Below the pieces are notes generated by a model, which was given only the letters and a program-made list of their open reading frames with translations, ran no database searches and had not been told where the DNA came from. DNA of 64,000 bases, taken from assembly GCA_019454145.1 (NCBI GenBank), contig CP075366.1:537564-601563 (forward strand). The letters are read 5' to 3'. How positions within the stretch are numbered: the stretch's first letter is position 1; each line of letters begins with the position of its first letter. Position numbers and translations under genes: made by a program. Positions 46,909-48,946 of the stretch are shown one piece after another. The DNA comes from Fimbriimonadaceae bacterium. Lineage in GTDB: Bacteria > Armatimonadota > Fimbriimonadia > Fimbriimonadales > Fimbriimonadaceae.

Positions 46909-47775
46909 ATGAATTCCCGGCTTGCAATCGTGACTTGCCAGAACATCCCCGAAGTGGATGTGGATGAGGAGTTGGTTCTTCAGCGGTTTAAAGATTCGGG
47001 ATTTGATGTCTCACTTGTAGCTTGGGAAGATTCATCAATCTATTGGCCATCCTTTGAAGCCGTTTTGATCCGATCTACTTGGAACTACCCCGAATTTCCG
47101 GAAGAGTTTCGATCATGGATCAATCGCGTGACGCTACTCACGCGCCTCTTTAACTCAGCAGATTTAATTTTGCCGAACATTCACAAATCATATTTGCTCA
47201 AGCTGAGCGATGCCGGGGTGCCCATAGTTCCAACCCTGTTACCGCGTGATTTTAACGAAGCGAAGAGTTGGTTATCCGAAAACCAATACAACCGATTCGT
47301 GCTCAAACCAGTTATCGGAGCCGGAAGTTGGATGACCGACTTTTTCAGTATTGATGAGCTAGAGCGCGCAGAAAAATTCTTTGCCGAGATCCAGGCCGAA
47401 AGCGACCCGATCTGCCAGCCATTTATGGAGTCAGTTGCCAACGGCGGCGAACGCTCACTGATTTACCTCGACGGCAAATTCACTCACAAAATCATTAAAC
47501 AGCCACGGTTTATCGGTCAAGAAGAATCAGTTTCAGATGCTTTACCAGTAGAACTTCACGAAGCGCAAATAGGCAACCTTGTTATCAATACGCTTACAGA
47601 AAAACCTCTCTATGCCAGGGTTGACCTAATCGAGGACAATGGTGAGTTGCTCCTCTCAGAATTAGAACTGATTGAGCCTTCGCTATTTTTCAAGCAAAAT
47701 CCAGCGGCATTGGATGATCTGATTCAGGGAGTCAAATCTCGATTATCTAAGGCCAAGGTACTCGAATTGAACTAG
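46909..47775 (+). CDS. ATP-grasp enzyme (RimK/glutathione-synthetase-like)
   Basis: A 288-residue ATP-grasp protein. Visible features are R-S-T-W-N-Y (N-terminal), K-S-Y-L-L-K-L, F-V-L-K-P-V-I-G-A-G-S-W for ATP binding, and E-L-E-L-I-E-P-S-L-F-F for the metal-binding end, where N would follow in many families. It is an ATP-dependent carboxylate-amine ligase of unknown substrate. The frame allows a TTG at 46903, but ATG 46909 is favoured. Its end overlaps that of the convergent candidate selenoprotein by 29 bases. Confidence 0.8.
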   Translation: MNSRLAIVTCQNIPEVDVDEELVLQRFKDSGFDVSLVAWEDSSIYWPSFEAVLIRSTWNYPEFPEEFRSWINRVTLLTRLFNSADLILPNIHKSYLLKLSDAGVPIVPTLLPRDFNEAKSWLSENQYNRFVLKPVIGAGSWMTDFFSIDELERAEKFFAEIQAESDPICQPFMESVANGGERSLIYLDGKFTHKIIKQPRFIGQEESVSDALPVELHEAQIGNLVINTLTEKPLYARVDLIEDNGELLLSELELIEPSLFFKQNPAALDDLIQGVKSRLSKAKVLELN

Positions 47776-48946
47776 TGGGATCGACATACTCGCCCCAGAA
47801 GTAGCTCTGCTGTGGCGGAACGGAACGGGCAATCTCGTCATCAATGGTTCTAAACGCAATCTTTAGCGGATACTTCCCTTTTGGTGCCCCACTTGTATTG
47901 TCATGATCGCCCCAGGCTTTTGCATCAACGAACGCAGTGAAATCTGTAGCAATCCCACGCTTACTGTCCACAGACATTGTTCCGGAAATAATCCCTTCTG
48001 TGCCTTTGGCAGTTCCGCCAGAGCCTTCCATGTTCGATATCTTGAATTGCCCAGAAAAGCTGAATTTGCCTTCTGGCATCCTGACCATCTTGATATCCAG
48101 TAACTGGATATTGTCGTATCTCCAACGGGTCGGTTCACCACGCACGTTATCCAGCAAGTGGAACCGAGCTAAACGCCGAGCAAGTTTTGCTGGCATGGCA
48201 AATTCACGACCGACTTGATCCAATATTTCCTTTGCATCTTCCGGGAATATCCAGAAGTGGTCTCGTCCAATGCTTTTGTTCTTATCCGAGGCATCAAGCG
48301 GCATGGGATCAATTCGTGAAATTGATCGAACGACAAGCGTTCCTTCCGGCTTCGGACGTGTCCATTGCTTAGTTGGGCTTGTTACAATCTCAACATGCTT
48401 TGGCGGGGATTGCTTGTACATGGCTAGGCCAGTATCAAGTAGCTTCATGAACTCATCACGTTGACGCCCGTGCATAGAAAACACGTATCCCTGGCCATCC
48501 GGCGCCACTACATAGAATCCCTGCGCTGTCACACCTTTGGATGCACCTGGATGAATATTCTTGATCGTTTCCATGAACCAAGTGCGCTCAGGGGATTCCC
48601 ATTTGCTCACTTGCAACTCGTTGGTGTTTCCGGCAAAAGGAATGAACTCATCTTTCAACCGGGCGATCACATCATCTCTCATGAACAAGTCACGCTTGTC
48701 CGCTTGACCGTTGTTTCACGTACAGCCAGTGGGATGTCCGTTCATCATCCACATAAATATAGGCTTGCCCTTTTCCTGCGCTTCAGCCCGAGCGGCGAAC
48801 AAATCCAGCCGCCAACCAACACGCATCCACTTTTCTTCTTCTTCGCTTGGCCAAATGGATTCAATACCTTCGGTTACCCAACTATCATCAACCGAGGGAG
48901 CAATGTTTGGCTGGGTCATCATTAATCCAAGCGCGAAAGAAATCAT
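47747..48946 (-). CDS. Candidate selenoprotein, thioredoxin-like, with in-frame TGA read as Sec
   Basis: One frame of 399 residues interrupted only by TGA at codon 77 (48716-48718). Translating through, the region reads K-P-I-F-M-W-M-M-N-G-H-P-T-G-C-T-U-N-N-G, so Cys75 and Sec77 form a C-x-U redox site in a thioredoxin-like domain, a segment where the family keeps its catalytic residues. The conserved-looking continuation (D-K-R-D-L-F-M-R-D-D-V-I-A-R-L) stays in the same frame. A SECIS-like hairpin sits right after the TGA. The N terminus is a weak export leader (M-I-S-F-A-L-G-L-M-M). Without readthrough it would give 76 residues plus a second product of 313 or fewer. It follows threonine dehydratase by 36 bases. 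A nonsense mutation or sequencing error remains possible. Confidence 0.72.
48684..48715 (-). promoter_or_regulatory. SECIS-like hairpin after the in-frame TGA
   Basis: Starting one base after the TGA on the minus strand: AACAA pairs with TTGTT (5 bp), a CG bulge, GTCA with TGAC (4 bp), an A-G mismatch, GC with GC (2 bp), apical loop GGACAA. The loop starts 14 bases after the TGA, with G at its first two positions. This fits the bacterial SECIS rules as I know them, although the upper stem is interrupted by one mismatch. Confidence 0.65.

Follow-up and report, generated by a model that had tools for sequence, protein, structure and literature searches.

Thioredoxin-like proteins with selenocysteine (Sec, U) have been described in several families. 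VPGUxxT proteins (NF041382/NF041383, OS_HP5) have a thioredoxin-like N-terminal domain with Sec, Sec.1 (PF13192) is thioredoxin-like as well and has Sec in a CxU motif, and TsoC (NF045708) is an 87-residue family with the motif NEPxGxxU. The Trx7/PDZ selenoproteins (NF041199) are of the Thioredoxin_7 type and combine CxxU with a PDZ domain. The Thioredoxin_7 (PF13899), DsbD-gamma, ERp18 and AGR domains share the thioredoxin fold and carry a CxxC motif. Selenoproteins without Cys homologues can be missed, as was pointed out in the deep-Sep paper (PMC12013277).

We analysed a 64,000 bp stretch of the genome of a Fimbriimonadaceae bacterium of the phylum Armatimonadota (contig CP075366.1), hereafter called the window. 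A gene on its minus strand (47747..48946) contains an in-frame TGA, which is very probably recoded as Sec; the gene would then be a member of a new, widespread family of thioredoxin-like proteins that occurs in Armatimonadota and Planctomycetota and has Cys at this position in very few cases.

Comparison with described families

None of the Pfam and NCBIfam models covers the family; the only similarity found was a weak one of the N-terminal part to VPGUxxT and Thioredoxin_7. None of the 119 families of the 2026 selenoprotein catalogue has such a motif, and a search of the openly readable literature for the motif strings returned no relevant paper. This agrees with an earlier sequence-only reading of the window, which had been unable to match the protein to a named family.

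The similarity to VPGUxxT extends over approximately 70 residues (best E value 4e-6, for the Cys homologue L021). However, the window family has HPxGCTU-NNG instead of VPGU-xxT and scores 10–27 bits against cut-offs of 275–350; the window protein itself reached 10.5 bits versus 350 (NF041382), and none of 31 genomes exceeded the NF041383 cut-off. PF13192 matched none of 60 members. The PxGxxU spacing of TsoC corresponds to P72-x-G74-C-T-U77, but no scanned member matched NF045708; this model also gave no match in 21 relatives including the genome studied here, nor in any control genome. NF041199 was matched by L021 only (18 bits versus a cut-off of 300, over 35 residues), and the window family has CxU and a beta-barrel where Trx7/PDZ proteins have CxxU and PDZ. 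With Thioredoxin_7, DsbD-gamma, ERp18 and AGR domains the family shares the fold (Z 9–13.5), Sec taking the place of the nucleophilic Cys; it differs from them in having U-N-N-G for CxxC, a Cys two residues upstream, Gly143 and the additional beta-barrel.

The gene and its in-frame TGA

Based on its translation and its homologues, the gene encodes 399 amino acids including Sec77 and ends in a TAG stop codon. The probable start is the ATG at 48946-48944, with AGAAGG directly 5' of it. Translation of the frame (48946-47747) confirmed that the sole stop before the terminal TAG is the TGA at 48716..48718 (minus strand), codon 77 of 399, in the sequence context GHPTGC75T-U77-NNGQ. Two other frames in the window also span a TGA, but these look like ordinary neighbouring genes sharing a frame. 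Within the window, TGA still terminates other genes (9 of the 43 non-overlapping ORFs of at least 200 amino acids), so that a genome-wide reassignment of UGA was rejected.

In a second assembly (G004) a protein with 94% identity to the window protein is encoded, with the same TGA, as it is in more than 130 other distinct genes; this counts against the misread codon (TGG or TGC) that the sequence-only reading had listed as a refutation. The dN/dS between the two genes was 0.042 upstream and 0.029 downstream of the TGA, indicating that the downstream part is translated and constrained. A diverged paralogue in the same genome (G000:C1:1065864-1066823) has a TGA there as well.

Conservation of the TGA and selenocysteine machinery

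A genome search revealed homologues in 38 of 101 related genomes, nearly all with one internal TGA. In total 132 distinct gene sequences from several phyla had TGA at the position of codon 77; the codon was identical in all branches and usually no further stop was present. Since nearly all homologues keep the TGA at the same codon, it is neither a chance event nor a sequencing error. Cys at this codon was found in one close homologue. Homologues with unrelated residues, which had been named beforehand as evidence against Sec, were few and came mostly from genomes without tRNA-Sec.

The DNA pattern NGHPxxCTUNNG was found in at least 116 stretches when a single genome of each bacterial or archaeal species was searched. 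Among the matches listed, most record titles named Planctomycetota or Armatimonadota; a few named Neomarinimicrobiota, and Chloroflexi and Latescibacteria had one record each. One record (L090) is titled 'Methanoregulaceae archaeon SJ84', a title that looks wrong, since the record has the same length (469,815) as contig C8 of an Armatimonadota genome (G018). Of 291 genomes of the phylum Armatimonadota, 34 had the motif with TGA, at 48 sites in total; the exact motif with TGC or TGT instead was present in none of these 291. Genomes often carry two or more copies of the family. Synteny around the genes is mainly conserved at genus level, and beyond the genus the neighbouring genes gave no hint to function. 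The Thr codon preceding the UGA (48719-48721 and the homologous sites) is mostly ACG, although any ACN would suffice, possibly a context effect on recoding.

The genome itself contains selA (435 bits), selB (301 bits) and selD (338 bits), all over the curated cut-offs, and a tRNA-Sec with anticodon TCA, so that the machinery whose absence would have spoken against Sec is present. Its selD also has an in-frame TGA. Among the 101 genomes, tRNA-Sec or selB was found in 34 of 35 with the TGA form versus 30 of 66 without it (odds ratio 41, Fisher P = 5e-8; the counts ignore kinship). The one genome with the TGA form in which neither was found is 73% complete.

SECIS hairpin

Hairpins downstream of the UGA were scored with the bacterial bSECIS constraints of PMC13188914. 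A bSECIS-like hairpin follows the UGA in 93% of the 132 distinct genes. When other positions in these genes were scored the frequency was 34%, and in synonymously recoded sequences it was 50%; all four family groups were above the latter control. In branch A, to which the window gene belongs, 15 of 20 genes had a hairpin versus 4.1 expected from synonymous recoding; the other 5 failed the SECIS test. A fixed-register pairing test gave no significant result over the whole of branch A, and the subgroups of this branch seem to use different hairpin registers; the per-sequence test with synonymous recoding was used in its place.

In the window gene the candidate is GGACAAG-CGUGA-CUUGUUC (48683..48701, minus strand). 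Its loop begins 21 nt past the UGA and has G at position 2 and U at position 3. Two homologues (L009 and L014) have GGACAGG/CCUGUUC, a compensatory change from A-U to G-C relative to the window stem. The good hairpin described in the sequence-only reading is present, and the signal across the family is clear, but in the window gene itself it is marginal. With few flanking bases the 7-bp hairpin has a folding energy of -7.0 kcal/mol (threshold -7.5), and when all 45 nt after the UGA are folded a competing fold is better. The hairpin is the best fold when the first 9 nt past the UGA, which may be under the ribosome, are omitted.

Protein fold and active site

An AlphaFold2 model based on a 60-row alignment (pLDDT 93, pTM 0.90) and a profile alignment supported the thioredoxin-like nature of the protein that had been proposed before. 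Residues 38-181 (48404..48835, minus strand) match the structure 3f9u best (Z 13.5), as well as ERp18, AGR2/3, DsbH and DsbD gamma. In the model, helix 78-87 begins directly after Sec77. In the profile alignment to 3f9u, Sec77 and G80 fall on the first and the second Cys of CVNC, respectively, and an invariant Gly143 occupies the cis-Pro position. The thioredoxin fold is present in the protein, but CxxC and cis-Pro are not, having been replaced by U-N-N-G and Gly143. The placing of the TGA at a redox site can now be refined: Sec occupies the position of the nucleophilic Cys of CxxC, with another Cys two residues earlier. This Cys75 (codon TGT, 48722..48724, minus strand), the putative resolving residue of Cys-Thr-Sec, is nearly invariant, nearly all members having it (Cys76 in branch C), and the GCT-U-NNG flanks are nearly invariant as well.

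The C-terminal domain (residues 197-399; 47750..48358, minus strand) was predicted to be a beta-barrel, also when modelled alone (pLDDT 96). A fold search with this domain returned generic beta-barrels only (best Z 6.8) and no convincing relative. The short hydrophobic N terminus (48890..48946, minus strand), modelled with low confidence, is a probable export signal, and two homologues (L022 and L045) have clearer signal-like N termini. Judging from these hydrophobic stretches, the protein is probably exported.

Branches of the family and forms without Sec

At least three branches can be distinguished in the family: A, with the window gene; B, with GCTUNNGVRGRQLVW and relatives; and C, with GHCUQNG and thus a vicinal Cys-Sec pair. 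A further TGA form (family f17; L192, G109, G111 and G112) shows a variant motif, which reads MVGNPQGCTUNNG in L192; the two halves of its thioredoxin domain seem to be separated by an insertion. A TGA group with GRCUGGAF, also with vicinal Cys-Sec, was observed in other Armatimonadota (L059, L194, L195 and L196). In another thioredoxin-like family (L200 and L201, FGRLDDEFCUTNARTLRA) a TGA is present at the matching position; it has Cys homologues (L190, L191, L197 and L199; EEMACANARTLRA) and forms a clean Sec/Cys pair.

The only close Cys homologue of the window family that was found, L021 (G070:C4:98144-99238), is full-length and has CDDC with Cys at the Sec position; its genome also contains several TGA forms. 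With this single case, the customary comparison of Cys and Sec homologues has a thin basis here. One homologue (L044) has GTTU and lacks Cys75. Some full-length homologues carry Ser, Asp or Ala at the Sec position or close to it. They come from G041, G052 and G031, genomes with no tRNA-Sec match as strong as in Sec users, from G184, and from the Sec-capable G012. Both Cys and Sec have been lost in five full-length sequences (L041, L042, L188, L198 and L043), mostly from genomes without tRNA-Sec. It is possible, with the balance just short of even, that Sec is nearly obligate in this family, with Cys unable to stand in for it, and that lineages without the machinery lose the redox centre (GTTS, NLTS or STTD for GCTU) instead of swapping in Cys.

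Discussion

The conservation of the UGA, purifying selection on both sides of it, the presence and co-occurrence of the Sec machinery, the SECIS signal and the fold all support recoding. We infer that UGA codon 77 would be read as Sec by the organism's own SelB and tRNA-Sec, directed by the bSECIS hairpin just 3' of the UGA. The presumably exported product would consist of a thioredoxin-like domain and a C-terminal beta-barrel domain, with Sec77 at the head of the active-site helix, where thioredoxins have the nucleophilic first Cys of CxxC. During catalysis Cys75 and Sec77 may form an intramolecular selenenylsulfide, in the manner of a periplasmic peroxidase or reductase. Because the second Cys of CxxC is Gly in U-N-N-G, Cys75 is likely to be the resolving residue; for the complete chemistry, with Sec77 as nucleophile and Cys75 resolving it, we consider the chances about equal either way.

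The alternative that survives best concerns this chemistry and not the recoding. The protein could be a selenoprotein without Cys75-Sec77 turnover, for example one in which Sec binds a metal, or a one-Sec peroxidase that depends on an external thiol. The GTTU form of L044, from which it follows that Cys75 is not the sole resolving option, points in this direction, as do the vicinal Cys-Sec of branch C and the Gly residues at the second CxxC Cys and at the cis-Pro position. Against it stands the retention of Cys75 or its branch C equivalent in nearly all members, and we lean somewhat away from this alternative while regarding it as a serious one.

It is very improbable that Trp, Gly or another standard amino acid is inserted at the UGA, by a code change or programmed read-through. 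The frame would be open under any such reading, but the 9 long ORFs of the window that end in TGA contradict a changed code. Moreover, the TGA form tracks the Sec machinery, a bSECIS-like hairpin follows it, the codon coincides with the redox site of a thioredoxin fold, and Trp was seen at that position in no homologue examined. We give equally little credence to the production of two proteins, a short one ending at a regulatory TGA and a second one starting from the TTG at 48688, for which the independently open ORF 47747-48688 could be cited. The TGA lies within one compact domain, modelled with high confidence, which would be cut into two fragments, and the residues on either side of it are nearly invariant. 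A pseudogene or sequencing error, in which the TGA, a stop truly present in the frame, is a nonsense mutation of a decaying gene, can practically be dismissed, with the same codon TGA in 132 distinct genes of several phyla, a dN/dS of about 0.03 downstream and usually no second stop.

Recoding as Sec is therefore the reading that we retain. The scarcity of Cys forms in the GCTUNNG family fits the remark on missed selenoproteins in PMC12013277; if Sec is indeed nearly obligate, this would explain why the family escaped methods that rely on Cys/Sec pairs. As NCBIfam, Pfam and the 2026 catalogue do not include the family, its genes are probably annotated in truncated form. The family is widespread and extends what is known of selenium use in Planctomycetota and Armatimonadota, and the rarity of its Cys forms makes it well suited for testing what Sec can do beyond the abilities of Cys.
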